64,000 nucleotides of DNA, taken from NCBI RefSeq assembly GCF_020520425.1, contig NC_079490.1:3472001-3536000 (forward strand), read 5' to 3'. Shown here piece after piece: positions 1,885 through 61,044 of this stretch (position 1 is its first letter; each line of letters starts with the position of its first letter). The position numbers were made by a program, and so were the translations under genes. The notes beneath the pieces are model-generated. The model worked only from the letters and a program-made list of their open reading frames with translations. It was not told the origin of the DNA and did not search any database. The DNA is from Spinacia oleracea (lineage: Eukaryota; Streptophyta; Magnoliopsida; Caryophyllales; Amaranthaceae).

Positions 1885-2859
1885 CTGGAAATATTCACAA
1901 TGCCATTCCCCAAAAATGATTAGAGATAAACACTGATAAAAGGTTTAAAATTACCCCCACAAACAGTTTTTGTTTTACCATATACACATTTTATTTGTTG
2001 CATCGCTAACAATCTATTTAAGCAATTGACCGGGAGGAATTACACAAACGAAGGCCATTTCGCAACTCAATACAAAAGCACAACCCCAACAAAGACTATT
2101 AAATATAACACCAATAGGTTGAAGCTAAAGCTGCAACGAGTAAAAGACCACGCAACTACAGTATATTCGAAAATAAAGAACATCAAACTTCTTAGTTGAA
2201 TCAATAATGATTATTCTAAGCAATTTGTCCATGTAATTGACCCAGAACCACAAAACGCTGGTAGCAAAATACCCATATGAGGGCCATTTTTGCACCTCGA
2301 CAGAAAAACACAAACCCACCAAAAATATACTCGTGTGAATCATATCAATAGACTCAAAATTGCAATCCTCAAGTAAATTCGTAGTTTGAGCTACAAAGAT
2401 CCGCGCAAGCTGAAGTAACCTAAAATGGGGAGGGGCATTTCAACATCAAATTTCTTTATTGCATCAATATCGATTTTTCTAGCAATTCGCCTAAATTGTA
2501 GATCCAGAACACAAAACCCCAATATCAAATCACCCAGATGAGGGTACTTTCAAACCTCAATCGAAAAATAACACCAACCCAGAACAGAAATAGTCAAATG
2601 AGTATTCCATTCTTCAAAAAATTAGCAGTTATTCATACAAAAAGCGTCTATTATTCAAAAAAATTAGCAGCTAAACCCGTAAAACCCCAGGTAAATCAAG
2701 CTATTTCAGACCTTAAATCACAAGCATTCTCCACAGAAAATGATAAATCAAGCATAAATGCAAGCAATATTAGATTATTGACATCTAAATCGATTAATTG
2801 AGAGCATAAATCAGAAGAAATGCTGGAAATTAGAGAGAGAAAGGGATGAGAGAGATTAC
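1885..2859 (-). other. 5' UTR intron of the prohibitin gene
   Basis: On the minus strand a donor (CAG|GTAATC, exon ending at 2860) and an acceptor (TTTCCAG|GG, exon starting at 1884, nine bases before the ATG) define an intron of about 975 bases in the leader. Several short open frames here are chance. Long leader introns are common in constitutively expressed plant genes. Borders are inferred from consensus only. Confidence 0.6.
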
Positions 2860-2860
2860 C

Positions 2861-2960
2861 TGATGGAGCCTGCGATTCAGTGAGAGAAAGAGAAATGAGA
2901 GAGGGATAGAAGTGGGCGAGTTGCCTGTAATCGAGGTTTAGGGTTTTAGAAGGGATAAAA
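2861..2960 (-). promoter_or_regulatory. Prohibitin leader exon with CT-rich tract and telo-box
   Basis: Read on the minus strand, this segment has AAAACCCTAAACC (a telo-box-like AAACCCTA motif at about 2935-2947), then a CT-rich tract (about 2880-2912) and ends at the UTR donor at 2860. Telo-boxes and CT-rich leaders are typical of plant housekeeping genes. The transcription start itself cannot be fixed. Confidence 0.45.
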
Positions 2961-3349
2961 TTGAACTTTTCTTTTGCAACAAGACAACTATCAAGAAGTC
3001 AATAACCATTAGTACAATATTTTCTCAAATTTCATGTTAACCCCAATAATTAAATAAAATAAATAAAATAACTTACACAATAGTTTTTTCGTGTTTTGAG
3101 GTTGTAATTTTGTAGGATATTCAATTTATTGATAACTAGACACTATGTATACCATTCAGTTAAGTAACGACTTATTACAATAAGTAAAATAAAACACCGA
3201 TTTGTATTTGAAGAAGGCTAAATGTAGTATTGGATTATTAAATATAAAAAAAAAATTAAACATAAACGTATGGTTGAATGATACTCCATAGTCCATATTA
3301 TGTGAATATAAACGGAATGGAACTCCGTAATAAATAATAAAGAGTAAAT

Positions 3350-3350
3350 A

Positions 3351-3391
<41 letters not shown>

Positions 3392-3400
3392 GTAATAGAT
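3350..3400. repeat. (AAT)n microsatellite
   Basis: About 15 near-perfect ATA/AAT triplets between 3353 and 3398, continuing as diverged AT-rich sequence to about 3530. A 105-residue minus-strand open frame across it is low-complexity Leu/Ile/Tyr and not a gene. The stretch 2960-3628 otherwise holds only AT-rich DNA. Confidence 0.9.
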
Positions 3401-3628
3401 AATAATAATAATTAGTAAATAATAAATACTACTCCAATAATAAATTATTATAAAGAATGAACAATAAATAATAAATAGTATGCGATAAATGTATTTTAAT
3501 AATAATAAATGATATATTTTTTTTACTTTGAACAAAAAAATATGACAAAGTAGTTATAATTATCATTTGGGAATTTGAAAATAATAAATCTTTGATTGAT
3601 AATTAGAAAAGAGTTCCTATTTTTTGTA

Positions 3629-4582: not shown

Positions 4583-5856
4583 CGGAAATTTCATGAAATA
4601 CCCTCGAGTTTTGTCATAATTCACCAAACGCCCATCAAGTTTCAATAATTCATAAAATACTCCTATTTCAATACTTTATACCCTAACTACCCCTATTTCA
4701 ATACTGAATACACCAAATACTTTAAATGACGTCATCGACCCTATAATAAACCACTTAACATCTAATTAACTCACTAATCCATAATTAACCCCTTAATTAA
4801 CTCCTTAATCAACCCACCCATTAACCCACTAACCCACCCATTTCTTTTTCTCTCTCCCACGTTTCCTCTTCCACTCCCTCGATTCCTCTTCCAGTTTAGG
4901 CTGCCCATTTCTTCTTCCCACCTTCACCGTCCAAAAGGGACTTCCATTTGCACCTGCAATTCTACAAAGCTTTTGGGGCAAATTTTGTATCATCCAGTTC
5001 CTAATCCATGTACCTTGAAACCTGTGATAATACGAGTTGAAGAAAGCTCCATGAAACATGTTGTTGTTGATGCAATTGGATTTAATTAAATATCACACTT
5101 AATTGAATAGCAATCATGTCTCAAAGCCAATTTCTATCAACTCCGAACTCATCAACCAGAACAAAATTGATGAGCATGATTCCATTTGGAACACAAAAAC
5201 TAAGTACGAACATCATCCTTTACCTACCGATCCACGAAATGCAATGTATCCAACAAAGTTCTATAAGCCTTTTCCCCCATCGATACATCCGTCTTCCTAA
5301 ACTCCTCGAGAAGCTCTAATGCATCAACACCCTGTCCATCCCTACACATCTCCTCCAACAAGGTCGTGTATGCTAAAAAATCCGGTTTCAACGCATTCCC
5401 CAACATATCGCGCAAAACCTCAACCCTTAACTTTCGAATTGTGCAATTGATTTGAAGTCGGGAAGTAGGTTTTGATGAACTGAGAAAATAATGAAATGGG
5501 TTGGATTTTGATTCAAAAAAGATTGAGGATTTGGGGTTAATTTGACTGTTGGGCTGTTGAGGAGCAAGCGCCGGAAACATTGGTGGTGGTGGTTAATTGG
5601 GGAACTGGGAAGAGGGTGGAAGGGGCAGCCATGGAGAAAAGGCCAAGGAAGAAGAAAGGGGAAGCGAGAAAGAAAAAGGGAGAAATGGGTTAATGGGTGG
5701 GTTAATTAGGGGTTAATTGGTTAAATTGGGGTTGATAACGTCACTAGGGTAGTTGGGGTATTAAGTATTGAGATAGGGGTATTTTATGAATTATTGAAAC
5801 TTGATGGGCGTTTGGTGAATTATGACAAAACTCGGGGTTATTTCATGAAATATCCG
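4583..5856. mobile_element. Mutator-like non-autonomous element carrying gene fragments (Pack-MULE type)
   Basis: The ends are CGGAAATTTCATGAAAT and its inverse ATTTCATGAAATATCCG, with roughly 180-200 bases of inverted repeat. It is flanked by a perfect 9-base target duplication, TTTTAAATA (4574-4582 and 5857-5865), the Mutator signature. The interior of about 850 bases is less AT-rich and holds coding-like fragments on the minus strand (5224-5580 and 4829-5059). No transposase is present. It sits at the symmetry centre of the surrounding palindrome. Confidence 0.85.
5224..5580 (-). pseudogene. PPR-protein gene fragment captured in a MULE
   Basis: An open frame of 118 residues. Residues about 57-118 read like a degenerate pentatricopeptide repeat segment (KPDFLAYTTLLEEMCRDG..ALELLEEF..TDVSMGEKAYRTLL). 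PPR proteins bind organellar RNA and normally have ten or more repeats. Here there are one to two repeats behind a short Ser-rich N-terminus, all inside a transposon bounded by a 9-base duplication. A captured fragment is the best explanation. Whether it is transcribed cannot be seen. Confidence 0.55.
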
Positions 5857-6279: not shown

Positions 6280-6559
6280 CACTACAAGAAATTGTATTAT
6301 TAACGACGGGAAATCCCGTCGCGAAAGGCCAATAATCATTTATTAACGACGGGATTTTCTGTCGCGAACCCGTCATAAAAGGGGGCCGTCGTTAATAGAA
6401 AATCCCGTCGTAAATCCATCGTAAACCCGTCGTAAAAGACATTTGCGACGGTTATTCCCGTCATTGTTTGGTTGTTAGCCCCGTCGCAAAAGCCTTTTGC
6501 GACGGGATTTTTAACCCGTCGTAATTAGGTTGTCGTTAAAGATACAAATTCTTGTAGTG
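6280..6559. mobile_element. CACTA-type MITE, copy 1 (intact)
   Basis: The termini CACTACAAGAAATT and AATTCTTGTAGTG are flanked by a perfect 3-base duplication GAA (6277-6279, 6560-6562), the CACTA (En/Spm) signature. The interior is built of inverted GACGGG/CCCGTC and TTTGCGACGG/CCGTCGCAAA motifs, so the transcript would fold strongly. It has no coding capacity. Relatives occur at 42049 and 52394. Confidence 0.9.
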
Positions 6560-6993
6560 GAATACTCCAACGACTTTAACCAGTTAAGGCGTGGTTCTCT
6601 TCTCTTGTGTTTATTCAGTTGCCATTATTATAATTTTAATAATTAAAAGTTAATTTTTACTAATTGAAATATAGATTATTGATTAGGACGAGAATACATT
6701 TCCCTTCTCGAAAAAAGGCAAAATAAAATTGTCTTTGGTTATTCAATACTAAAAAAACATGAATTTACTACACATTACTCTTTTCGTTTCGGCATAACTA
6801 AAGGGAAATTTGACTCAAGTACAAATATCAATCTTCTTTCCCTCTAAACTTGCATCATTGTTGCATGTATGCTTTCTACCAGGTTGCTGAATTGATCCAT
6901 TTTTGTATCAATTTTTCGTAACTTTTTGTATTAATCCTTGTGTAATAAAACTCCAAAAACATATCAATAAGTAAGCTTGAACCTTTTTATTTT

Positions 6994-8679
6994 CGGTTTT
7001 TTCATGAAATGCCCCTGAGGTTTGCAATAATGCACCAAATACCCCTGCGCGTTTCAAAATTCATAGAATACCCCTATTTTTTCAAACCTGTTCACCAAAT
7101 ACCCCTATTTTGACTTTCCGTTAGTCCTCCGTTAAGTCATGTTTATAATTCACCAAATACACCTATTTATAAACTTTTTGCATAGTATACACCTATTTAT
7201 AAAGTTTTTTGCACCAAATGCCCAAACAACTTATACCATTAATAATTGAATTTAAAGCCCAAAATTGAAGAACAATACATCTGAAAATTGAAGAACAAAA
7301 CCCATAATATTGAAGAAGAGAATATTAATTTTGAGAGTTTAATTCCTAAAATCGAAAATCTAAACTACAAATTCGAATTCTAGTGTCTATAATCTCTCTC
7401 TAATATACCTAAATTCTGCTGTTTTTCGCCCCTTGTTGCTGCCACTGCTATTCTATGCTCACGAAGAACTCAGCTCCAAAATCTAAAATAGGAAAACCAA
7501 CGAAAATACAAAAACAAATGTTGCTCCAAAATCTCCTCTAATTTCATATGCTCCCTCGAACCAAAAAGAAGAACATAAATGCTGAAGAACGAATTCGAGA
7601 ACGAAAATCTGCACACACAAAAAAAAAAAAAAAACGAAAATCTAGTTCTGTATTCTCTCTTAATTGCTGCGCTACCCTATATGCTCTCTACTCTATCTAT
7701 TTTTGTTCTCCGTCCTTCGAATCCAACCCCCAAATTCGCAAAAAAATCAGCCCAGAAAATAGGGGCAACATGAAGTCTGAATTCAGCATCTTCAATTTCA
7801 ACAGAAATATGAATTCATGTCCTGCTGGCTTCAGCATCGGCATCTTCAATTTCATCTTCAATTTATTACTCAGTACCGCCGCCGCAGTATCATCATCACC
7901 ATTCATCATCGTATTAAACCTCCCCTTCTTCATCAAACTTCAATTCACGATTTCAATTCACTCGAAAATTTGGCTTCGATTATTTGGGGATTTGAGTTAG
8001 CAATTGATGTTTGATGAAGATGGTTTGAAGAAGGAAAAATTGTGGTTGGTTCACCATTTAGGAAAAAGAGATGTGAGATTGAGAGGAGAGAGGACGGTGA
8101 GGGGAGAGAAGGGATTTAGAGTTAATTAAGGTTCATTAGGTGTTAATTAGGATTAATTTAGGCATTAATTCACCTCAAATTACCCAGAAATACAAGCTGC
8201 TTCTTCCGGTAATTTGGTGGTGCAGGTGGTGGAAAGTTTGGCGAATCCACCATTTTCGCCGACGAAGGTTGAAGGTTGGCGGCGAGAGGAGATGACGTCC
8301 GGCGAATCCATTTTATCGGAGAAATTCATTGAGAGGAGAGGACTAAGCGCGGTAGCAGCGGAGGAATGAGAAGACGGTGGCGAGAGAAGAGAAACGATGA
8401 AGAAGAAGAAGAGGGGCGAGTATTTAAGAAGGGTCAAAAACAACAGAGGAGATGAAAGGAGAGAGAAGTAATTAGATTTTTTTTTTAAAGTTGAAATGTA
8501 GAATATTGGGTGAATAAGGGCATAAACGTAAATTAACGCTAACGGAGTACTAACGGCCGTTAAATCCAAGGGTATTTGGTGCACTTTAAGTTTAAATAGG
8601 GGTATTCTATGAATTTTGAAACGCGCAGGGGTATTTGGTACATTATTGCAAACCTCAGGGGCATTTCATGAAAAAACCG
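6994..8679. mobile_element. Mutator-like non-autonomous element, copy 2
   Basis: The terminal inverted repeats are near-identical for about 90 bases (start CGGTTTTTTCATGAAATGCC), flanked by a perfect 9-base duplication TTTTATTTT (6985-6993 and 8680-8688). It shares the TTTCATGAAAT terminal block with the element at 4583. The interior has gene-like 5'-end sequence on the minus strand (about 8180-8450: CT-rich leader, then an ATG with MNFSDKMDSPDVISSRRQ). I cannot identify the donor gene. No transposase. Confidence 0.88.
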
Positions 8680-9128
8680 TTTTATTTTATATTTTTTCAA
8701 TTTCCTATACAATATATATATAGTTTCAAAAGAAAATTTACATATTGCAAATGAGGAAATTCAAGTTTTGCTATATAATTTAGTCTAGTAATAGTGTGTT
8801 TATGTTACAAAATCTCTAATTCCCAATTTTAATATGTGACACATCAATATTTACAACACAAATAATTTGTCGCAAGTTATGACATTTATCACTTTGCTAC
8901 ACAAAATGACCAAGAAATTATATCAATCAAACCCCTATACAGTATACACCAATTGAAATCTAGGAAATTACATGATCTAGGGTGCAACTCTGTTACATAA
9001 ACACCATTTACTGAATTACTCCTGTTCGGCAAATGATAAATCCAAGGAAAAAAAAATCACTTTTTCCAAGAAAATTAGTTTTGAAAAATGTGGATTTCCA
9101 TGGAAGACGTAAATTTTCCTTGGATTTA

Positions 9129-10604
9129 TCACCTCCACTCCGGCTCTGATTCATCATATGATACTTGACTATTAGTTGTGCTCCACTCCGGAAGCATATC
9201 GGGTAGACTTTGGCTATCTGTATAAAATGCAGGCTGCAAAGGTGCTTCAAAGGTGACCGAATTCGTACTCAACATAACATGAACCTCAGACATAGTTGGC
9301 CTGTCTGCAGGGCTTTCTTGGACACACAACAAACCGATATGGATGTATCGCAGTATCTCGGTACTAGAGCCGGCTAGTAACACAGGATCTACCAGATTCC
9401 GAGCTGTGCCTTCATTCCAGTTTCTCCAAGCCTATACACAAATGTCATCCAAGAATGAGGTCAAGTTTGTCGATTTAATGCAACGTAAATTTAGAATTAA
9501 CCAATCAGATAATCAAACTTACAAAGGCCGTGAGGTTTTCTTTTTTTCCCCTGTAATAAAATGAAGTAATCCTCTGCCCGCTTACTATCTCTAGGACTAG
9601 TACACCAAAGCTGTATACGTCTAACTTTACTGATACTTGACTTTGCTCAGCGTACTCAGGTGCCATATATCCACTGAATAACAAAAATCATTTCTCAAAA
9701 TAGGAAAACAAAAGCATACAGAGTATTAGACATTATGTAATTAACTAAATATAAAGTTCCGATGCTTACAAGGTTCCAGCGATTGTGCTAGTCTCTGTTT
9801 GAGTTTGATCTATGTTAAATAGCCATGCCATACCAAAATCTGCAATCTTGGGACAAAAATCTTCATCAAGTAGAACACTTCCTGCTTTTAGGTTGCGATG
9901 TATGATCATTAGTCTGGAACCTTCATGGAGGTATAGAATCCCTCTAGCTATGCCATTGATAATCTTATAACGAGTTTCCCATTGCATAGACTGACGACTC
10001 AATGGATCTGCATTTTATTACCAAAATAGTATGATGGACACTGGATACATGTATCATGAAATGAAACTAGTCCCTAGAGTCGTAAACAAATCTAATATAC
10101 ATCACAATCATTTGAAAATCACCCGGATTGGATTGTTATACATCCCGGTAGTATGTGTGAAATCTTAAATTGTAGTAGTAATTTCATACCAAATATAAAG
10201 TTGTCAAGGCTTCTGTTGGCAACAAACTCAAGGATAAGAATCCTTTCTTCTCCATGCAAGCAAAATCCCAGAAGTTTCACCAAATTCTTGTGCCGGACCT
10301 TGGCTAATATCAAAATTTCATTTTTGAACTCTGCATCTCCTTGGCGCGAGTTCCTATAAAGCCTCTTAACTGCTATCTCTTGCCCATCAGGAAGTATACC
10401 CTACAAAGAACAAATAAGCTGGTTAATCATTTGAAGTAATACACTAATACGTAGTACACCAGTACTATATTAACTGAATTAGTACCTTATAAACCGGGCC
10501 GAATCCGCCTTCTCCGATCTTATTATCATCAGAAAAGTTATGTGTTGCAATTTCTATAGTTTCAAGGTCAAATTGCAAGGATTGGAGGGCCTCAACTTCG
10601 TCTT
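9129..10604 (-). other. Pseudokinase-encoding exons of the NLR fusion
   Basis: Five exons encode about 340 residues from the juxtamembrane motif [16 protein letters not shown] through all kinase subdomains. Intron positions ([34 protein letters not shown]) look like those I recall for cysteine-rich RLK genes. The extracellular DUF26 domains and transmembrane segment are absent, and NLR sequence begins 107 bases upstream instead. The catalytic loop is [11 protein letters not shown] where active kinases have HRDLKASNVLL, so both the base and the Mg-coordinating Asn are gone. Activity is unlikely. ATP binding may persist, because the IAVK Lys, the alpha-C Glu and DFG are present. Confidence 0.85.
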
Positions 10605-13571
10605 CTGCACTTATACCATGAACAAAGTTATACTTGTAGATAGTTAGGAGCTACTAGGTATATATAAAAATATGTAACCTTTTACACACACAAAAAAAAA
10701 AAAGATCTTACTGGTAAAAGAATGATTCAGATTTCTGATTTCCTGTAGTTGGGAGTTTGATTCTTCCAGTTTCGGACACAGAGGAAAATTTCTCAAATTA
10801 TCACAAAATGTAATTAACAGATGAGAAAGGTGATGGAACGAATACGAATGTGATTGAAACCCTGCTACTTCTCGTGTCTCACCCATATCTGATTCTGATT
10901 TCCACCATCCTTCCAACTTTGGCATACTCCAAAGCTCAAGCTTTTCAAGGGATGGAAAGAAAACCAAGTCAACATCTGCTCCTCCATGATTTGACCCTCC
11001 TGATGTTGATGCAACCCCTTCTGCGCTGATAGTACTATTCTCCATACACACCACTTCATTCAAATATCGTAATGTAAGGAATTTCAAATGACGCAGTTGA
11101 CTCATCAATGGAAGATGCTCCAACCTTGTACATCCATATAGTGTTATGCTAACAAGATTTGGGAGACAAGTATGGAGATTCATTGATGACCTCCCCCAGC
11201 TTGGGAATCCAATTCCTGGATAATCCCTCAACTCCAGCATTCGGAGATTAGGATGGGGTTGCAGCCCTTGCAGCACTACATCTGCATTTTTTCCTTGCAG
11301 CAATGCATCTGCATCAGTCCCCTCACTCTCATGATTCCAAACATACCGAATTTCCCGCAAATGTTGACTTTTTAATAGAAACCCCCTTTCCCTAGCATCA
11401 ACTGCGTCTTTTTTGACATAAATTACCATATAGTGGCTATGATTGCTGAAATTTTTCAAATCTCCCAGCTCACCAACACCGTTTGACCCCCGATTCCAGC
11501 TATTTCTTGTTCTGCTCACTACAAACCCTGTCAGTTTATGCAGAGATGTCATGCTATTCATCCCCCGAGGCATATGCGACAAACTCTTACAGCCTTGTAT
11601 ATCTAGGTGCCTTAGATTAACTAATTTCCTCAAATCGCTTGGCAAAGTTTTTAGACCACGACACTCACGTAACTTCAATATTTGCAAGTTGTAAAGCTTG
11701 GTAATGGAGGTAGGCAACTTAGAGAGACGGTAATTATCTGATAGGTCAAGATATCTTAGATGCAACAAGTTACCTATCTCACTCGGCAACATTTCCAAAC
11801 CAGAGTTATTCAAGCTTAAGACCCTTAAATATTCCACTTTTGATAACAAATTTGTTGAATTAGAAGAAAGCGCATCTATTCTAAAAATTGAACGCATCCT
11901 TTTCATATTGGTGAAATGACGATAAATATCTTCAACGGCATCTCTATCAATAAATATATGGCGAGTTTTCTCGCTAAACCCCCTTATATTATACTTGGAC
12001 GACACGATTTCTGTTCCTGCTACTTCACTAGCAAGGTCATGAATCAAGTCATGCATCTTGCATGATAGAATTTCATCAGTACCCTCGGCCCGTTCTACAT
12101 CTTGGAAGAAACACCTTTGGAGTAATTGTTTGAAATATTCCTCACCTGCATTTTCGAAACTCTCTTCATTTGATGAGATGATGAAGCCTTGTGCCATCCA
12201 GAGACTGATCAAATCCTCCTTGATAATCTTGTAATCCTTGGGGAATACAGAACAATACTTAAAGCAACTCTTCAAATGGAACGGAAGATAATAATAACTA
12301 ATCTTCAAAACAGGTAAAATACCATTGATCTCATCTTGTGGTATATTTGCCAAGTCAGTGTTTTTCAAATATTGCCACCTACTTTCACCCTGACCTCGAA
12401 GAAGACTTCCAACCACCCTTATAGCAAGTGGAACATTTGCACACTTTCTCACAATATCTTTTCCAATTTTAACCAAGTGCTCTTGCATTTGATGTTGTCC
12501 TGGTTCAAGTGTCATCCTCTCAAACAAATCCCAAGACTCTTTATTAGAGAGTCCTTCCAATTTATGAATATGATAGCTTCCAACAACTTTCGCCACCCCA
12601 CTTGAGCGAGTAGTCACCAGAATTCTGCTACCGTTTCTACCTCCAATCAATAGTTTTCTCAACTCATGCCATTTAATGGGATCTTCAGTCCATACATCAT
12701 CCAAAACAAGGAGGTATATCTTCCCATCCAGTTCGTCCCGAAGTTTCATCTGAAGCTGGTCCATACTCATACTCAGGCCATCGTGCTTTCTTCTAGGGTT
12801 TACGGCTGCAAGGATTTCAGCAACAAGATCTTTGACATTGAAACTATCAGAGACACAAACCCACATTTTCAGAGAGAATTTACTACCTATCTTCTCATCA
12901 TTATAAACAAGTCGGGCTAGAGTTGTTTTTCCCAGCCCCCCAATCCCCACTATGCTGACAACAGAAATATCCTTCTCCTCAGAAGAAGTGTTTAGTACCA
13001 TATCTATCACTTTCCGCTTGTCATTATCCCTCCCAATGATCATATCTTCCTCGCAAACAAAGGAATGAGTTTCCCTTGCTTTGATTCTCAGCTGTTTCGC
13101 AGCCAGACTAATGGGGTGTCTGGAGCCAAAGTCATAGCGATGATCTTTCACAATATCATTCAACATCTCCCTAATGTTCTCCATCTCACGAGACCAAGTG
13201 AAAGCAGAACGAAGCTTATTAGAGGAAGAGAAGAAAAGGCATACCTCATTAAACAGCTTGTTATTAAAGCGCATTATGAGGGTTTTGCGTTGAGCAAGAG
13301 TGGCAATCTTGTCGAACAAGTCATCAGCTATATAAAGAGCTTCCTTAAGCCTCTGAAGCCTATCCAGTTCAACATGGCTACGACGATATTGATGCAACTG
13401 CTCTTGATCTTCAGCATCAAGGAGCACAGCCTCAATAGTGGACATGGTGGCCTTGAGTTTGTCAAGCTGTGAGTACTCCACACCCAACAAAGATTGAATC
13501 TGTGTCCAAATGGGAGAACCCAACAATTCGAGGACAGTTTGTACTAGTGAAAGGCCTGCAGACACATCCAT
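9129..13571 (-). CDS. CC-NBS-LRR resistance protein fused to a CRK-type pseudokinase (predicted NLR-kinase fusion)
   Basis: NLRs are cytosolic immune receptors. Six exons: 10712-13571, 10486-10604, 10190-10400, 9770-10007, 9523-9673, 9129-9431. They total 3,882 bases, 1,293 residues, in phase at every junction. Residues 1-170 are an Rx-type coiled coil. NB-ARC follows: P-loop GIGGLGKTT (209-217), kinase-2 LLVLDDVW (287-294), [14 protein letters not shown], a weak GLPL (NVPLAI), [14 protein letters not shown] and MHD (506-508). LRRs run from about 580 to 940. From residue 954 the protein is a DUF26-RLK-like kinase: [31 protein letters not shown] and MAPEY, ending EPEWR. The HRD Asp and loop Asn are lost. 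There is no signal peptide or membrane segment before the kinase. Alternatives: two adjacent genes, or an NLR plus a kinase relic. Confidence 0.75.
10605..10711 (-). other. Fusion-junction intron between the LRR exon and kinase exon
   Basis: The donor ACCA|GTAAGATC is at 10711 and the acceptor AAGTGCAG is at 10605. The single exon base A plus AA from the kinase exon makes a Lys codon, so the frame is kept. The intron has a long T-tract. If retained, translation adds 22 residues rich in Phe and stops at 10644, giving a 975-residue NLR without the kinase. Splice sites are inferred from consensus. Confidence 0.65.
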
Positions 13572-29512: not shown

Positions 29513-29578
29513 CTAGTATTCGAAAGGCCAACCGCTGTAATTCATCTCATGAAACTCGTGATTCTCTCCTCCGTGAGT

Positions 29579-29610
<32 letters not shown>

Positions 29611-30568
29611 GATTGCTCACATTCGGTGGTGAAACATACTCACGGTTGCTGGTACTACTGGTTGTTGTTGTTGAAGACCGAAAGGGCCACAGAAAAGAGA
29701 ACGGGTTTCTCCTGTTTGTGTTCTGATCACTGTTTCCTCTCTCTCTCGAGATGTTGTTAATGCTACTAGAACTTCTTCTGCTACTCCCACTGCTTGAATT
29801 GGAATTCTGTCTGCAACTCGGAGTACTTGACCCTAACTCGTGGCGACAAACGGGGCAGGAGTTATGCTGGACCAACCACGGGACAATGCAATCAGAGTGA
29901 TATAAGTGGTTACAAGGCATTTGCCTTGCTTCTGTACCCAACTCGAACTGATCTTTACAAACCGGGCAATGTGAATCGGTCTGGATATGGGTCCGAGTGA
30001 TCTTGATTACGGGCAATGCATCGATAGCTGATCTAGGGGCTGGTGCCGGGCCTTGCCTATCAACCATTAGCTGCTCAATCAACTCGTGAAGGCCCGGCCC
30101 GACAAACAGATCACCATTGTTTCCCCGGCTTAATCCAATTCCCGGGTTTCCATTAAAAAACATCTCGAACCCACCACTTCTAGGCATTGGCATCCTTCCG
30201 GGGGGAACTTGGCCTTGAAAAATCAACCAAGGGTTACGATCAGCATCAATACCGTATCTCCTTCTCTGCCCCGTGAAAGACTCTAAAGCTTCGATTAACC
30301 CTAATCTTTGCTCGGGATTATTCCGGATCATTAACGAGTCTAAAGCTTCCATAATTCCTTGTATTTGATTAGGGCCGTCTCTAATTCCGTAAGGGGTGGT
30401 TGTATTACTACTATTAACTCCAACCGGACCCGGACCCGGACTGCCCCGTAACTCCTCTAACTCTTGCACAAACCCTCCATCACAAATAGGGCAAACCGTG
30501 CCTCGGTTTCGAGGACGAATTGGCTGCCTACATTGATAACACCAGTGTGTATTTCCACCACTCGACAT
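29513..30568 (-). CDS. RING-H2 E3 ubiquitin ligase, RING1/RHC1A-like (zinc-ribbon plus RING)
   Basis: A predicted E3 ligase of 351 residues, single coding exon. The N-terminus MSSGGNTHWCYQCRQPI..CPICDGGFVQELEEL is the zinc-ribbon typical of RHC1A/RING1-like plant E3s. The C3H2C3 RING is at about residues 200-240 (CPVCKDQFELG..MPCNHLYHSDCIVPWL..SCPVC) with all eight ligands. The C-terminal tail is Ser/Asn-rich and includes a run of twelve Thr, near the end, before HGGENHEFHEMNYSGW. The start is the ATG at 30566-30568. The frame stays open upstream but contains no earlier ATG. E2 binding and ubiquitin transfer are inferred from the family. Confidence 0.92.
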
Positions 30569-30682
30569 CGTTAAACACAATCCCTCTCTCTTTCCCTTCC
30601 TTTTTTCTTAACAATCACAATGTTTCTCACAATAGAAAAACTCCCAAATCCACTTACTTCAACAACCAAACCAAGAATCACT

Positions 30683-40374: not shown

Positions 40375-40530
40375 TATTTTTTTGGCGTACCACACAGTTC
40401 ATCTTTGGGGACGAGTTTTGAGTGGATAGATTCCAGTCCCCTCTCAATTATCGTTGCGGGAAATCGAACACATGATCTTCCCTGCCACCAAGTTCAGCCT
40501 TAATCACCAGTGAACCAACAGATAAATGGC
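40375..40530 (-). mobile_element. tRNA-derived SINE, reverse orientation, 5' of the ATL gene
   Basis: Minus strand: head with CTGTTGGTTCACTGGTGATT (A-box-like), GTGTTCGATTTCC (B-box-like), body ending in an A-rich tail (40375-40383 as T on the plus strand). Similar to copies at 40987 and 62829. Its 5' head runs up to the ATL start codon. Confidence 0.65.
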
Positions 40531-40978
40531 GCTTACAGAACTAGAACGCGCTGGATACGCTTTCATCTCCTTTCCTGCAATCGTACTCATTCTCATAACC
40601 ATCAAACATCTATATTCCTTCTTCCTACGTCTAAAACACGACAACACCGATCATCAAAATCGTCGTCCGAACCTCGATACGGCCGCCTCGGATCCCGTGC
40701 CGATCGTCACTATTAATCAACCTCGAGGTCGTCTAGAACTAGATGATTTGGAGAGAATAGTTGTTATAGATATAGAGAAAATTCAAGAAATTACTCGAAA
40801 TTGCGATGATTGTGTTATATGTTTGGATAATTTTGATCATATCGAAGATGATAACAACAAATGTGTTGTTCAAGTTAAAGTATTGGAGCAATGTGGGCAT
40901 AGGTTTCATACCATTTGTATACAAGAATGGCTAACCAAGCACCAAACTTGCCCTCTTTGTCGCACCACAACACGATAA
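40526..40978 (+). CDS. ATL-type RING-H2 finger protein
   Basis: A membrane-anchored E3 ubiquitin ligase candidate, intronless, 150 residues. It has a hydrophobic segment at about residues 10-35 (YAFISFPAIVLILITIKHLY), a basic/polar linker, and a C-terminal RING-H2 with all ligands: C96, C99, C123, H125, H128, C131, C142, C145, including CPLC. The spacing between C99 and C123 is longer than usual because of the insertion HIEDDNNKCV. ATL proteins are typically intronless and stress-induced. This one is short but complete. SINEs abut it on both sides. Confidence 0.88.
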   Translation: MALTELERAGYAFISFPAIVLILITIKHLYSFFLRLKHDNTDHQNRRPNLDTAASDPVPIVTINQPRGRLELDDLERIVVIDIEKIQEITRNCDDCVICLDNFDHIEDDNNKCVVQVKVLEQCGHRFHTICIQEWLTKHQTCPLCRTTTR

Positions 40979-46867: not shown

Positions 46868-48706
46868 TTAATTGGACTCCACAACACCATCAACATCTTC
46901 CTCCACATCAGGTTCTTCATTAAGGTCAATGATAGGACGTGATTTTGAGGTGGTCTGAACCGGCGGCGAAGATGACACTGGCGGCGGCGACAACGGCGGC
47001 GAAGATGACAACGGCGGCGACGACGACTGCACATAATGACACCTCATATGCCCTCCTAAAGCTTGCCCTGACTGAAAACTCTCGTTACAAATGTTGCACT
47101 TGTGAACTGAGTATGCCACGTCACCTCTGATCTCACCCGGACCCACTTGGGTTAACCCGGATCCATGCTCAAGTACTTGACTTCTTGGTACTTGAGTTAA
47201 GGTTAGGGTTGGGGTTGGGGTTGGGGTTAGGGTTAGGGCATGGTTAAGTGTAGTTGAGCTTGAGCTAGGGTTAAAGTTAACATGAGTTGACTTAGGTTGA
47301 CTTTTTTTTAGGTTAGCTTTTTCTTTGTTGTGGCTAGACCTATGACCACCTAAAGCTTGATGAGTTGAGAAACCTTTACCACAAGTGATACAAATCCACT
47401 TCAAAACCTCCCCGTCCGGCCCCACCACCACTTCCCGCACCACCGTCTCCGCTTCCTCATCTTGATTATTATTCTCACCACCACCACCACTGCCGCCACT
47501 ACCACCAGCTTCTTCTTTCTCTTTCTTGTGATGTTTAGCTTGGTTCGGTTGTTCATGACATTTAACCGCCTTCCTCTTCTTCTTATTCGTCGAACACGAA
47601 GCTACATTCTCCTTTCGAGGCGAACAATGAAAGGTTGTTGGATGATTGAACTTCATAGGAGGGTAATCAGGGACTGTAATGTTCAACTCGTACTGTAAAA
47701 AGTACAACTCATCTTCGTCGTATTCCCCTTTCTTCTTCTCTACTCTTGCCCTTATAACCGCCCGAATTCCGTCTCCGTCTTCGGGTTCGGGTTCGGGTTG
47801 GGGTTGATCGGGTTCGATAGACGGACCATTCGATAAATACATCAGATTATCAGTAGCAGCAACTTCATCGTCGTTGTGACTGGAATTATCCGAAGACGAC
47901 GATGACCCGGTACCCGTACCCGTATCCGTTGATGAAGGATCCTTAACCATTCCTCGCTTCCCGAATCCCTTCCATCTCAAAAGCTGAATCCGATTCACCT
48001 CCTCCTCACCCGACCCATCATCACCACCCGACCCGCTTCCATTGTCGATCTCACAATCGTTGTTGCTGGGCGGGATCGGGCTGACCCGAACCCGATTAGA
48101 AGGCGGTTCCATCCCCCGATAATCGCGGTCAGGGTGGGACCTCATATGACCAAAGAGGGCTTTTTGTGATTTCAAACCCTTGTTACAACCCGGATAATTA
48201 CACTGGAAAATCCCATCTTGATCTTGATCCCGGGCCCCCGAACTTGACCCGAATCCACCAGCGGCAGCCTTCTTAGCGGCGGCGGAATAACCACCACCAC
48301 CCGCCGCCTTCAACGGCCTGTCGTCCCTCTCGGCAGCGTGAATCCTCAAGTGACCTCCTAGGGCTTTTCCGTTCTGAAACTTTTTATTGCAGTATTTACA
48401 ATCGTACTTCTTCGCGTTAACAACAACAACTTCTTCAGCTTCGGGCTTAGCTTCGGGCTCAGCTTCGGGTTTAGCTTCGGGTGGTTCGAGCTGAGTCGGA
48501 ACTCGGAACTCCCCTTCTTCCAAATCATCATCATCATCATCATCTTCAACCACATAATTAACAAGTTGCGGTTGTTTCTGCGGTGGTTGTTGCGGTGGTG
48601 GTGGTGGAGTAATAGTAGTAGTAACAGCTGATGATGATGAAGACGGTGATCTTAATTTCACTATCAATTTTTTTACAGACTTCTGATTTTGATCTTTATC
48701 CGCCAT
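46868..48706 (-). CDS. C2H2 zinc-finger protein with four fingers and a DLN EAR motif
   Basis: A predicted nuclear transcriptional repressor, intronless, 612 residues. The fingers are at about 101-123 (CKYC..KALGGHLRIH), 168-191 (C-x4-C, KALFGHMRSH), 438-459 (CITC..QALGGHRSSH) and 536-557 (CNIC..QALGGHMRCH). Three carry plant-specific ALGGH motifs. The C-terminus has PIIDLNEEPDVEED, an EAR-type repression motif (594-599). Long acidic, Pro, Ser and Gly tracts separate the fingers, including an Asp run at 55-61 and a Leu-Thr/Pro-Thr dipeptide run at 491-504. The ATG is the first in frame. Four dispersed fingers in one exon fit the large plant multi-C2H2 (ZAT-like) group. DNA targets are unknown. 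Confidence 0.92.
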   Translation of the reverse strand: MADKDQNQKSVKKLIVKLRSPSSSSSAVTTTITPPPPPQQPPQKQPQLVNYVVEDDDDDDDLEEGEFRVPTQLEPPEAKPEAEPEAKPEAEEVVVVNAKKYDCKYCNKKFQNGKALGGHLRIHAAERDDRPLKAAGGGGYSAAAKKAAAGGFGSSSGARDQDQDGIFQCNYPGCNKGLKSQKALFGHMRSHPDRDYRGMEPPSNRVRVSPIPPSNNDCEIDNGSGSGGDDGSGEEEVNRIQLLRWKGFGKRGMVKDPSSTDTGTGTGSSSSSDNSSHNDDEVAATDNLMYLSNGPSIEPDQPQPEPEPEDGDGIRAVIRARVEKKKGEYDEDELYFLQYELNITVPDYPPMKFNHPTTFHCSPRKENVASCSTNKKKRKAVKCHEQPNQAKHHKKEKEEAGGSGGSGGGGENNNQDEEAETVVREVVVGPDGEVLKWICITCGKGFSTHQALGGHRSSHNKEKANLKKSQPKSTHVNFNPSSSSTTLNHALTLTPTPTPTLTLTQVPRSQVLEHGSGLTQVGPGEIRGDVAYSVHKCNICNESFQSGQALGGHMRCHYVQSSSPPLSSSPPLSPPPVSSSPPVQTTSKSRPIIDLNEEPDVEEDVDGVVESN

Positions 48707-48965
48707 TAAAGAAGGATTAAGATGAATCGAGTTGAATTCGAAACAATTAAACTATTCAATTAAATTTGGGATTTGAGATTTGGAATTTGAGAGTGAGCTT
48801 AAGTTGAGCTAGGGCTTTTTAACACGAGAGAAAGCAAAGAGAGGGGGAGAGAGGCAGGTTAGAATATAAAGCTAGGGAAAGAGAAAAGATAATTAAAGAC
48901 TTTTCGGATTTTTCTACTTTTTATTTATTTATATTTGAAGATGCAAACAAATTTGAAATGGTTTA

Positions 48966-56073: not shown

Positions 56074-59000
56074 TCAATCGTTCTTCGAAAATGGGTAAAA
56101 AGCACAGATACTATCCCATGTAGAAAAACCCAGCCCGAAACTTTGATTTGAATCATCAATAGGTAGCGCACCACCTTGCTTGTGTTCGTAGCTGAGATCA
56201 TCACCCAGAAGTGCCCCGAAATCTCCTGTGATTGATTCATCCTTGCTGCGCCCAATGCGTTGGCGAAACCAGTATAATGAGTCCAGTAAAGCATCAGGCC
56301 TTAAATTCTCAAATGAAACATCTTTCTTTTCATCTGATTCAGCTGAAACCCAGTCGAATTTACCTGCATCAATGGTAAGAATTAGATTCGTTTCATTAGA
56401 AAGCAAGGAAATGAATACATAGGCCTAGGTATCTTAGATTCTTAAGCATGACAAGAACAATTAGGATCAAATTGGTTTTTCTTAAGCGCTTATTTGATCG
56501 GAGACACTCCCTCCGTTCCTAAAAAAGTGTCCATATTGAAGGATTTCACGGTAATTGAGGAAAATGAAAAGTGGGTAAGAAAAAACAATGATTGGGAGTG
56601 TATGTGGAAAGGATATAGTAGATAATTGTTTATTAAATACAAATAAAAGTGGATTTGGGGATGTAAAAGTGGGAAAAGTGTTGAATGTGTAAGAAAAAAC
56701 AATCATGATTTATGGAAATGTAGGAAAAGTATAGGTCCAAAAATAGAAAGTGGACACTTATTAGGAAAAGTGGACACTAATTAGGAAATGCCCGATTTAG
56801 AATTATGAACACCTATTTAGGAACGGAGGGAGTAAGAAATAAGGAAACATGAGAGTTGATATTTAAAAAGTAAGGAGTGGGATTTATGGTTAGGGGAAAA
56901 AATGGAATAAGTAGCTTTCCTACAACCCTCTTCCAAAAGAAGAAAACAACCCAACTTTTTAACAGTTTCCCTCTAACTTTCACATCAAGCTCTGTCATGT
57001 TAAGGCAACAAAGACAATTTCACTCAAAAGTCTCGAATGCATGAAACATGTGTTTAAGGAGATTTATGACTATTGATATATTGTACATAAACTAGTTTTA
57101 ACCCGTGCTATGCACGATTATATATTTTAATCAAATTTATATAATATAGTTTGATCTAGGAATTGAGACAATCAACTAATCAATTTATTCCTACCAATGA
57201 TGAAATAGGATCAGGATGTTATGAATATATACAACATTAATGCAAAAAAATATGGAGTCATGCATTTTTTTTATTTTTGTTTTCAAAGTAAAAATAGGAT
57301 TTCAAAGGTAAATCAATTAAAGGAATAAAAATAGAAATCCAAAAGGTGGACACGTGGCAAGTAAAACATCGTGTTTTAAAATATTAGTATAGATAAAAGT
57401 TTTATGACTAAGATTAATAGAGGAAACAAAATACTAACCTGGTATGGTCTCAGCTGACTGGGGTTCATCTGATGAGCTTCCACCACTAGCAGGAGTGAAC
57501 TCGACAAAAACAGAAGCAGCAGAGTTGCTAAGTGGTGATATTGGTTCGCCACAACAAGCATCCCGAATTGTTTCACGTACTACATTATGTGACGAAGATT
57601 CGAAACCATCCATCATCATCTGCTGGTGTGAAGTATTATATTTCGAGCACTTTTTAGATTTTGATTCATATACAACTTCCTCCAACGTGCCACTGTTGCG
57701 TGGCGAAGGGCAATTTGATTGAGTGTGCTCACTCAAAGGGGATTGGATTAAAGTATCAACAGACTCAAGGGAAGGCAACGGGGAAGATGGTGTAGCCCAA
57801 CTGCCTACTTGAGATGCTGAGTATTGGAGTGAAGGGAGCTCCAGCTTCATAGCCTCGGAAACGGGCTCAGAAGAAGAAGAATTATTATTGCCATTTATAA
57901 TAATAGGGGCATGGCTACCAAGAACATCAATTGAAGAGGTTTGGTTATTGACATTCAAATCAGGATCATATGACCAAAGAGGCCGCACAAACGGATCATC
58001 TTCATGTTGTTCAAATGTAGGAAAAGCATTGTTGCTTGTACTTGCAACAGAAACATGGAACTGGTTTTCCACCTCTCGAAGGCGTTTGTGAGGGTTCAAA
58101 GCTGAGAACATGTAATTATTATTATTATTATTATTGTAACAATTAGATGAGCTCAAACCTTTATGGTGGAGGAGGCTTGAAGGAGGGATATCAAGTAGAT
58201 GAGATGGGGAACAGTTTAGATATCCCTGATTTATCCCTAAATTTTTGAACTCAACATCGGGAATTTCAAAACCATTCGTCTCTGAGGCCTCGGAATGGTG
58301 TATATTATCTCCATTCTGACATGACATCATGTCATCACTTTGTTGGCTATCATTCATTGCTTGCATACGGACACTAGCGGGATAAATGGGTAAACCAGCA
58401 CGTTGTAGCCTCTTAATTCTTGTATTCCAGTAGTTCTTTATCTCGTTATCCGTACGTCCAGGCAGCTGGAAAGAATGCAAATGAGATAAACATCCACAGA
58501 TTAGCCAACTTAGACATGGTTTAGGGCAATTAGAATATGATTAAAGGGGGTAAAACAAAGAATAAGTTTAAAAGAAAATAATATTGTTCGCAACATGAAA
58601 CATGCGGAATATATGTGATAAAAAGTCTAGCAGAAGAAATCACATGGTACGCGTGAACTTCTAGAAAGGAGCCACAGGACAGAGCGCAATTAGAGTACTA
58701 CTCAAAATAAGGATTCGGTAACCAAGTCAATTAAGCAGTTGAAAGAGAACATAAATAAAAACTCAGCTTATGCTTTATTCTGTGAAGAGCGAGGTAGGTA
58801 CTATCATCTCGAGAATTAAATTTTAATAAGCCAGAATTAAATTCTACTAATAGTACATCAAAGACCTATCAAGTAACAAGCATATCATACTTTAGTGCAT
58901 TTAGCTGCATACATTCTAGGCTAACAATAAACAAGTGAAAGGTAACGGCGTAATGCAACACAAATAGTTAATCAATAGCTTCTCCCGAAAGAAGCTATGC

Positions 59001-59783
59001 AATGGGCATACAGATCGTTTAACAAGTGTCTAAAAAACCGGTCATAGACTTATAGCCTACATCAAACCAATTATATACTTGTCCAAAAGGGAGCTCAAAT
59101 ATACATTGAATTTTGGCTAAATAATGAGAATAAAGTCAGTATTACATATTCGAATGATTTTCAGCACAAAATGCTTCAGATGCAGGAAAGTAAGTAATCA
59201 GCTAGATGTGATAAGGGAATCAACATTTTGCTTACAAAAAAAGAAAAAAGAAACCTGAAGTTTTCTGCAAAAATACTGTTGAAATTAGGACACAATTTTA
59301 ATGTTTTAGATATGGTAGATTGACATTTAGCCAAGAAAACAACCTTAAGAACAGCTATCGAATCTTCCAAGCAACAACCATGAAAAACTCAAAAAGGCTG
59401 ATACTAAAAAAAAGTACCTCTGCAGCCATTCGAGCCCACTTGTTACCCATCTTAGCATGGAGTTCTATGATACGATTTTCTTCTTCGGGGGTAAATGATC
59501 CTTTTTTCAAATCCGGTCTCAAGTGATTTGCCCATCGCAAACGACAGCTTTTTCCACAGCGTGAAAGTCCGGAATGTTTTTGGACTGCATTCCAATTTCC
59601 CTCTCCGTGCTTTGTGACATATTCCATCAATATTGTGTCCTCAGCTGATGTCCATGGACCTTTCTTCAGGGAACTTCCACCACCAGAAGAGTTTCCACCA
59701 CTAGAAACCTCTTCCGCACCAGGGGAATTTTTACGACATCTTGCAGCCTTCCTTTTATCACTGTCGCTCGTCATTTCAATCAT
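56074..59783 (-). CDS. GAMYB: GAMYB-type R2R3-MYB transcription factor
   Basis: A nuclear activator of gibberellin-responsive and anther/seed programmes. Three coding exons: 59418-59783, 57439-58465, 56074-56363, totalling 1,683 bases and 560 residues, in phase. R2 runs from about residue 40 (LKKGPWTSAEDTILMEYV..GNWNAVQKHSGL) and R3 from about 92 (LKKGSFTPEEENRIIELHAK), split by an intron before LPGRTDNEIKNYWNTRIKR. The GAMYB signature RAGLPIYP follows. Later come the acidic C-terminal part, MKLELPSLQYS, and the conserved end block RPDALLDSLYW..GALLGDD. The frame is open upstream, but the first ATG is at 59783 (another at 59774). Intron 2 contains a Stowaway and a Helitron. Confidence 0.95.
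56518..56832. mobile_element. Stowaway MITE in GAMYB intron 2
   Basis: Ends CTCCCTCCGTTCCTAAAAAA and TTTAGGAACGGAGGGAG. TA on the right, decayed to CA on the left. 315 bases. Confidence 0.85.
57092..57393 (-). mobile_element. Small non-autonomous Helitron in GAMYB intron 2
   Basis: Minus strand: flanking A, then TCTATACTAATATTTTAAAA.. and at the end CGTGCATAGCACGGGTT, AAAA, CTAG with flanking T. It has the same termini as the element at 25693. No coding, 302 bases. Confidence 0.85.
57823..57843 (-). promoter_or_regulatory. miR159 target site in GAMYB
   Basis: Minus-strand core GGAGCTCCCTTCACTCCAAT within codons for LELPSLQY. The position and sequence match the conserved miR159 site of GAMYB genes, so the transcript should be cleaved by miR159 outside tissues where it is needed. 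Complementarity is judged from memory of the miR159 sequence. Confidence 0.9.
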
Positions 59784-59823
59784 CTCAATAGAGTTCTTAA
59801 AGTTGGTCAATAACCTTTTGTTC

Positions 59824-61044
59824 CTGTTGAATCAATGTTGAAGCAATAATGTTGTTAAGAACTTCATCAACTAGATCATCCAAAAGACAACACCAGGAAA
59901 ACTATTCAAATAAATTTAGCACCCTTTCAATTGTATCCAACAATAAGCTACATTTGCATTTTGCAAGCAAGAAAAAATGAGTGAATGCAAAAGAAATCAC
60001 AAGGTGCAAACAGGTTGCACAAAAAGAGCCAAAACATAACTAAATCCAGTTGACAAATGCTGAATGAAGCTCAATTCATTTCAATTGACTATACACTCAA
60101 GCAAACTAGACTATCCAAAAGTCAACAGGAAGACTATTCAAACAAAGCTAGCAACCTTTCAATTGTAAACCAACAATAAGCTACATTTGCATTTTGCAAG
60201 CAACAAAAAAATGAGTGCAAATGCCAAAGAAATCACAAGGTGCAAACAGGTTGCACGAAACGAGCCAAAACAGAACGAAATCCAGTTGACAAATGCTTAA
60301 TGAAGCTTGATTCACTTCAATTACTATACACCCAAGCATTCGTTCTAAGAAACGCACCTGGTCGTAAACAAGGGACAACAATTAGATAATCACATATGTC
60401 ATCTCTATAGCTTAACTAAGGAAACTGGTTTTGGCACACCCCTTTGTTGATTTTGGCACACCTCTATGTGCGTTGTTTACAGTGTGCTTTCACAGAGGGT
60501 GTGCCAAAATCACTTTTTTGGTGTGCCAAAATCACTTACCTTTAACTAAGTGTCATTCAACGATACAAACAACACAACCAAAGCAGCAAAACGCACAGGT
60601 AAGAGCCATCGTAACTCACACTAGCGCGCTTCTACAGTAGCATACATTTCTAGCAGCTCGAAAGGTCGATTGGAAACTAAATAAGCAATGACAGAGCCAA
60701 TTTAACAATGAAAAACAGATGATGAGATACTCTTTGAAGCTGTACATTAGGGGTAATACCTCATCATACCATTGTCATGAAACAGATTGATTTTCATCCT
60801 GCTAAATTTCATAGATCACACTAATGTCCACACATGAATAATGATATATACTGCTCAAGATCACCAAATCTTCGGAAAAATCAATAGCAGCGCGTATTAA
60901 ACTAGGTAATTCAGTCATAACTAAGAGCAATTCAATCAAATCATAGGAAAATCAGAAACATTTCTGCATTTCTAAGGATGAACTAGTTCTCAACAACAAA
61001 ACAATTGAACTAATTAAATAAACAGGGGTTGAATTAAAATTAAC
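59824..61044 (-). other. 5' UTR intron of GAMYB
   Basis: Donor CTCAG|GTTAAT (exon end 61045) and acceptor GATTCAACAG (exon start 59823) fit consensus, leaving a 40-base leader piece before the ATG. The intron contains a direct duplication (about 59876-60116 and 60117-60340, with TAAGCTACATTTGCATTTTG in each) and a small GGCACACC/GGTGTGCC inverted-repeat element (about 60433-60540). More leader lies at 61045-61700, with a GA-rich region and possibly another intron. Confidence 0.55.

Follow-up and report, generated by a model that had tools for sequence, protein, structure and literature searches.

Analyzing a 64,000-nt stretch of the 894-Mb Spinacia oleracea genome (C4:3,472,001-3,536,000; hereafter the window), we find a gene model on the minus strand (13571..9129) in which a coiled-coil nucleotide-binding leucine-rich repeat receptor (CNL, a type of NLR) runs in frame into the kinase domain of a cysteine-rich receptor-like kinase (CRK). 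On balance, we think it probable that this single spinach gene encodes a CNL with an integrated CRK pseudokinase sensor at its C-terminus. Held more tentatively is the fuller account, in which the NLR has a CRK pseudokinase of its own as bait in cis, taken from a family of cell-surface receptor genes and disarmed, with its fold under selection.

Rebuilding the gene gave six exons whose phases agree and whose introns are all GT-AG, with a sum of 3,882 nt or 1,294 codons including the stop. A preliminary description of this DNA had proposed a phase 1 donor at 10711, a first kinase exon starting 107 bases away at an acceptor of complementary phase, and six exons of exactly 1,294 codons; all three hold in the rebuilt model, where the GT-AG intron 1 spans 10605..10711. 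Exon 1 (10712..13571, minus strand like all exons) contributes 953 codons plus 1 nt in an open frame. Its start is conserved, since the quinoa protein P0003 begins MDVSGALSLV in alignment with the start in the window. Pfam detects in this exon Rx_N (PF18052), NB-ARC (PF00931; residues 187-426, 12294..13013, 164.2 bits), the winged helix WH_DRP (PF23559) and leucine-rich repeats (LRR, PF23598), all above the cut-off. Five NB-ARC motifs were searched and all are present (P-loop, kinase-2, TTR, NVPLA and MHDL). As in a CNL, an Rx-type coiled coil, NB-ARC, winged helix and LRR lie in one chain with P-loop, kinase-2, GLPL-like and MHD motifs. The remaining exons carry the juxtamembrane motif and glycine-rich loop (exon 2, 10486..10604), the ATP-binding lysine and helix C (exon 3, 10190..10400), the catalytic loop and DFG (exon 4, 9770..10007), the end of the activation segment with APE (exon 5, 9523..9673) and the end of the C-lobe (exon 6, 9129..9431), which closes with the stop TGA at 9131-9129. 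At the level of the gene model, the kinase domain and the NLR thus share one open gene, as in an NLR with an integrated domain.

The NCBI model P0001 ("putative disease resistance protein RGA1 isoform X2"; 1,251 aa) starts at Met43 of the six-exon model, matches it with 100% identity through the join and the kinase, and has the same C-terminal end. A domain search had been suggested in the preliminary description; Pfam finds NB-ARC, winged helix, LRR and protein kinase in P0001, with Rx_N seen in exon 1. Numbered NCBI isoforms usually rest on transcript alignments, and the label "isoform X2" is the one hint of transcript support. In the NLR tree, the closest relatives are the spinach proteins P0004 on C4 (support 93/91) and P0002 on C3, followed by quinoa genes.

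Searching the genome DNA with the kinase part (best 40 of 473 candidates scored), we found its closest relative at one place, C6:13.940-13.942 Mb, with 81-89% identity over the main pieces. The match covers the kinase exons, each of exons 2 to 6 included, and parts of the introns, with the order kept. The locus (L065, 4.5 kb) encodes a DUF26 receptor kinase, that is, a CRK, with ectodomain, membrane exon and kinase, its first codons lying outside the piece; the membrane exon ends ..IGTIIGAISMAIGVLTVLVIGVVCKRILSRRRRLRKSWMGKFT and the kinase follows. Tree analysis pairs the fusion kinase with this C6 CRK as its sister (support 99/99), and the pair sits in a clade shared with CRKs from quinoa and amaranth, which places the fusion kinase among the CRKs. 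Our first tree had suggested that the kinase has no spinach sibling; this was dropped when the DNA search found the C6 CRK, which the protein search (119 of 1,619 scored) had missed.

The two DUF26 domains and the membrane span that mark a CRK are absent from the fusion, in which CRK DNA begins at 10718. Four full CRKs used as queries match kinase exons only in the window, with no ectodomain, and no ATG precedes the kinase motif in the kinase's own upstream frame. A genome search for DUF26 listed 150 matches (150 of 254 candidates scored), of which about 100 lie on C6 at 9.6-16.1 Mb; those listed on C4 are at 172.08, 172.09 and 186.3 Mb, the nearest being about 168.6 Mb from the fusion. A stand-alone life of the kinase therefore seems hardly possible, given the missing ATG, the missing ectodomain and the distance to the nearest listed C4 DUF26. 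The central claim of the preliminary description, that a CNL replaces both the ectodomain and the membrane span in a DUF26 receptor kinase, gains support from the C6 relative, from the four CRK queries and from the same join in P0001. Since the introns travelled along, the captured segment is a copy made at the DNA level and not a retrocopy. A DNA-level origin has likewise been inferred for integrated domains of grass NLRs (Bailey et al. 2018, PMC5819176).

The join can be read almost to the base. Comparing the window with L065 by BLASTN, we obtained a separate match at 10718-10662 that runs from the final bases of the CRK membrane exon into the intron behind it, TTTACCA followed by GTAAGATC. 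Exon 1 therefore closes with the 7 coding bases (TTTACCA, 10712..10718) that terminate the membrane/juxtamembrane exon in the CRK. NLR homology stops at 10725 and CRK homology begins at 10718; the chimeric breakpoint between them (10719..10724), placed by the paralog alignment and the start of the BLASTN match, consists of six bases, CATTCT, assigned to neither parent. In the predicted gene, the join falls inside an exon, within coding sequence, and therefore the next intron of the CRK adds the kinase in frame. Both ends of intron 1 (107 bp, phase 1) match the C6 CRK. Exon 1's last 7 bases, the donor and the acceptor all being CRK DNA, no new splice site was needed, and a new donor born in the NLR, which we had considered, was dropped. 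The junction of the preliminary description accordingly stands in its donor, acceptor and frame, while the splice pair turns out to be the CRK's own and no new pair is required.

What preceded the join on the NLR side is told by paralogs. Two copies, L043 (C2:14.03 Mb) and L045 (C2:19.56 Mb), read ..GAATTAG where the fusion reads ..GAATCATTCT; in codons, they have ..CGG AAT TAG, and the fusion has ..CTG AAT CAT TCT and then CRK bases. Their TAG aligns with window positions 10724-10722. The two copies are just 74% alike around this stop, and the TAG is therefore common to two separate lineages. Both copies are damaged, L043 matching in shifted, interrupted pieces and L045 being a fragment. A third paralog, L042 (C3:6.76 Mb, encoding P0002), has AAT CAG at the site and continues for a few codons, and given this CAG, loss of the stop at the NLR end may have come before the fusion event. 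The P0002 isoform X2 of NCBI ends in residues that are not found in the open frame of L042. L040, L041 and L044 have diverged past the CPKL motif and say nothing on the stop codon; P0010, from L044, has a longer LRR. The join likely displaced an NLR stop codon, likely and not more because TAG is seen in just 2 of the 6 paralogous places, both of them damaged copies. The preliminary description had placed the NLR stop at 10644; that stop lies inside CRK-derived intron sequence, and the NLR copies stop at 10724-10722.

Intron 1 is 107 bp long in the fusion versus 1,029 bp in the C6 CRK. In L055, a further spinach CRK, the intron at the corresponding place is short and of equal phase, as read by eye, and the long C6 intron may for this reason be the derived form. 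A loss of about 0.9 kb of intron in the fusion, which we had considered, is made less convincing by the short L055 intron; the C6 gene is just as likely to have gained an insertion.

The loss of catalytic residues, which had escaped the preliminary description, is a new finding. Aligned with the HRD of BRI1, the codon of the catalytic Asp (9892..9894) is GAC in the C6 CRK and AAC (Asn) in the fusion, giving HRN; the codon of the Mg-binding Asn at +5 (9877..9879) is AAT in the C6 CRK and AGT (Ser) in the fusion. Both residues are intact in the C6 CRK and also present in related CRKs, and therefore both losses fall on the fusion's side. For comparison, one pattern matched 406 catalytic-loop motifs in 233 proteins from two kinase searches: 402/406 have the catalytic Asp, 402/406 have the +5 Asn, and 0/406 lack both. 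The four that read HCN are all in Ipomoea proteins. In the 88 columns where 28 CRKs show no variation, the fusion deviates at 7, the highest number among the 29 rows. It retains the ATP-binding lysine, the helix-C glutamate and DFG. With the HRD Asp and the Mg-binding Asn gone, the integrated kinase should be a pseudokinase from which no phosphate transfer is expected.

The C-terminal end has changed as well. Just past the 326 codons that can be compared, one base is missing relative to the C6 CRK, and the last 13 codons of exon 6 are read in another frame. The present stop (9131-9129) sits at the edge of an insertion (9027..9136) resembling a miniature inverted-repeat transposable element, with 17-bp terminal inverted repeats at 9035-9051 and 9114-9130 and with matches listed at 27 other places in the genome. 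Behind it, a relict of the CRK C-terminal codons (..NGVYVTELHPR, 8975..9010) survives as a 36-bp match, 92% identical to the C6 CRK. The predicted fusion kinase has thus lost the CRK tail.

We propose a mechanism for the favored reading. On C4, a CRK kinase half is attached, introns included, to the end of a short CNL. An effector from a pathogen, by binding or modifying kinases of the CRK type, would also act on the tethered pseudokinase copy, which would presumably serve as the integrated sensor; the NB-ARC switch would then receive the change in the pseudokinase, and the coiled-coil domain would trigger defence. ZAR1 works with the RLCK-XII pseudokinases ZED1 and RKS1 as sensors, and the proposed arrangement would be like ZAR1-ZED1/RKS1 with bait and receptor in one chain. 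In a table of PMC4759884, AT4G11890 appears next to the AvrPto group, and this was counted for a sensor role.

Selection on the kinase bears on how far this may be trusted. Comparing the fusion kinase with the C6 CRK over 326 codons, we obtained a nonsynonymous divergence (dN) of 0.0915, a synonymous divergence (dS) of 0.321 and a dN/dS of 0.285 (bootstrap 0.19-0.44). At a rate of 7e-9 per site per year, dS 0.32 would make the CRK duplication roughly 23 million years old. Neither stop nor frameshift falls within the compared codons, and all kinase splice sites are kept. Three-point dN/dS estimates with two distant spinach CRKs gave 0.32 and 0.25 on the fusion branch and 0.23 and 0.34 on the sibling's, values that are rough with an outgroup dS of about 1.3. 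Simulating neutral change by substitutions only, we found 0.6% of runs free of stops over half of dS; with half of the fusion branch neutral this became 6.5%, and with a quarter neutral, 23%. Restricting the count to sites with agreement among three closer outgroups, we assigned 22 private changes to the fusion against 4 for the sibling (22/26, p=0.0005); with single outgroups, the fusion:sibling counts were 28:13, 34:9 and 32:11. The branch length in the tree is 0.24 for the fusion vs 0.067 for the C6 CRK. Both catalytic residues are among the positions changed in the fusion, as are several in the activation segment. Taken together, constraint on the fusion kinase looks lowered yet not gone.

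These numbers are also the ground of the main rival, a serious account that we nevertheless hold unlikely, in which the fusion transcript exists, the NLR does the work and the kinase is a functionless passenger in decay. The loss of two catalytic residues, the faster change (22 vs 4) and a tail altered by a one-base frameshift and an insertion all suit it, and a late join is possible, because a quarter of the branch evolving neutrally leaves 23% of simulations stop-free. Speaking against a decaying passenger are 326 codons free of stops and frameshifts (the frameshift lying just behind them), the kept splice sites, a dN/dS of 0.285, and fusion-branch estimates that resemble those of the sibling.

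We consider it improbable that two adjacent genes, an NLR and a truncated kinase, were falsely joined by exon chaining. A transcript retaining intron 1 would end at 10644, and the fusion transcript is a predicted one, as two genes would allow. Against this, the segment 10718-10662 is CRK DNA that brings the last 7 membrane-exon bases in frame behind NLR codons, the 107 bp between the parts offer little space to a promoter plus a start, the upstream frame of the kinase offers no ATG, and the NCBI model joins NLR and kinase too. Still less probable is a kinase acting as an output module that phosphorylates a substrate once the NLR is active: the retained ATP-binding lysine, helix-C glutamate and DFG would fit, but with the HRD Asp changed to Asn and the +5 Asn to Ser, phosphotransfer should go, by established kinase chemistry. 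An assembly error fusing two unrelated loci is very hard to credit, for although a single assembly was searched and P0001 is not independent of it, neither half is near-identical to another locus (best other listed match 78% for the NLR and 81-89% for the kinase) and the window contains 0 N letters.

Several points weigh against the favored reading, that of a CNL with an integrated CRK pseudokinase sensor. We know of no effector or phenotype for the fusion gene. The gene model is a DNA-based prediction, and P0001 does not stand apart from that DNA because it was predicted from an assembly with a chromosome of equal length; that the protein is made and is cytoplasmic we infer from this predicted gene. 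Because the join may fall anywhere within the dS 0.32 divergence, the kinase may owe some of its purifying signal, or all of it, to an earlier time as an ordinary CRK. Slow decay would likewise account for the faster change, for the frameshift by one base that alters the last 13 codons and for the insertion at the stop. A genome search for NB-ARC (121 of 179 candidates scored) listed 124 matches, and apart from the fusion itself the nearest of them on C4 map to 2.24 and 4.98 Mb; the closest is about 1.2 Mb off, unlike the paired Rpg5 and RGA5, and no head-to-head partner of the Rpg5 kind was therefore found. A catalytically dead kinase is, moreover, not the norm among NLR-kinases as PMC4759884 describes them.

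We also looked for other fusions of this kind. Using the kinase as query with fusion-length candidates, we found NB-ARC in P0001 only among 120 matches listed of 7,953, a weak negative as long multi-kinase proteins crowd the list. A fusion-wide protein search with words from the first 500 residues found a Pfam kinase in P0001 only among 120 listed of 2,881. Near the NLR paralogs, tblastn with kinase queries gave zero matches in the stretches of 4 of the 6 paralogous places (L056-L059), the remaining two (L041 and L044) being viewed with short flanks only. Among the sequences examined, the fusion thus appears private to this one gene. Elsewhere, L060 (C3:18,001,000-18,010,900) has a kinase match lying about 3.5 kb upstream of same-strand NLR matches (6982-7857 and 1995-3521), its NB-ARC frame interrupted by TAA. 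Judged by title or abstract start, none of the open-licence papers listed dealt with this spinach gene or with a CRK-type integrated kinase. The spinach downy-mildew loci RPF1-RPF3 are on chromosome 3 (PMC9737595).

Other features of the window are separate from the fusion. An R2R3-MYB gene on the minus strand (57434-59831; Myb_DNA-binding in 59831-59355 by Pfam), which we take to be of the GAMYB type, has at 57843-57823 a near-perfect target site of the miR159 type (TGGAGCTCCCTTCACTCCAAT; 1 mismatch to the target pattern used, with no match expected by chance). At 6280-6559, terminal inverted repeats CACTACAAGAA / TTCTTGTAGTG enclose an internal palindromic AACGACGGG repeat, presumably a CACTA-like non-autonomous element. 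A short open frame with a PPR_2 repeat by Pfam (5224-5592, minus) is a possible PPR gene fragment. Ordinary genes for two RING-finger proteins and one C2H2 zinc-finger protein (Pfam) lie at 29513-30607 (minus), 40526-40978 (plus) and 46868-48751 (minus).

The fusion belongs to a known class that is not rare. The preliminary description had called NLR-kinase fusions rare; Sarris et al. (2016, PMC4759884) count integrated kinases as the most abundant class, with 161 NLR proteins in 19 species. As in the NLRs with integrated kinases reported by Sarris (2016) and Kroj (2016), an NLR here bears one extra full-length kinase domain, and introns are retained in the captured part, as in most integrated domains of grasses (PMC5819176). 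The catalytic Lys and Asp are described as conserved in all NLR-integrated kinases (Sarris et al. 2016, PMC4759884); in our fusion the Lys is kept and the Asp is Asn. This conservation describes their sample and does not define the class. The fusion differs from that class in having neither catalytic Asp nor Asn and in a source traced to a CRK. New, then, are the traced CRK relative, the exon-internal join and the lost catalysis.

Barley Rpg5, of the grass clade MIC1, is likewise a CNL with a C-terminal Ser/Thr kinase domain, but it has a head-to-head partner NLR (PMC6570958), in contrast to the spinach gene with its nearest listed NB-ARC at about 1.2 Mb. Barley Rpg1 is also a resistance protein with a pseudokinase, and a review table places it among CNLs with integrated domains (PMC9528084); the excerpts of PMC6570958, however, describe it as a cytoplasmic two-kinase protein and mention no NLR part. 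The Arabidopsis kinases CRK43, CRK44 and CRK45 share with the fusion a CRK kinase that lacks ectodomain and membrane span, and differ in being cytoplasmic-domain-only CRKs that are not parts of an NLR (PMC4511522). An interaction of CRK45 with effectors has been reported (PMC4511522). In ZAR1 with ZED1/RKS1, a pseudokinase of the RLK/Pelle superfamily is the sensor of an NLR, the role proposed for the fusion kinase; there it is a separate RLCK protein, whereas here it is CRK-derived and predicted to be in the same chain.

In this gene, the assembly of an NLR with an integrated domain is readable almost to the base: the closest unfused relative of the captured part, the join within coding sequence, a reused CRK intron and the loss of catalysis on the fusion's side. 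It departs from the published conservation of catalytic residues in NLR-fused kinases, and a decoy reading is therefore testable. CRK kinases become candidate effector targets, with one specific spinach gene named. If the NLR does carry its bait in cis, it would be a fused counterpart of ZAR1-pseudokinase sensing, and CRK cytoplasmic domains would be effector targets in the spinach lineage.

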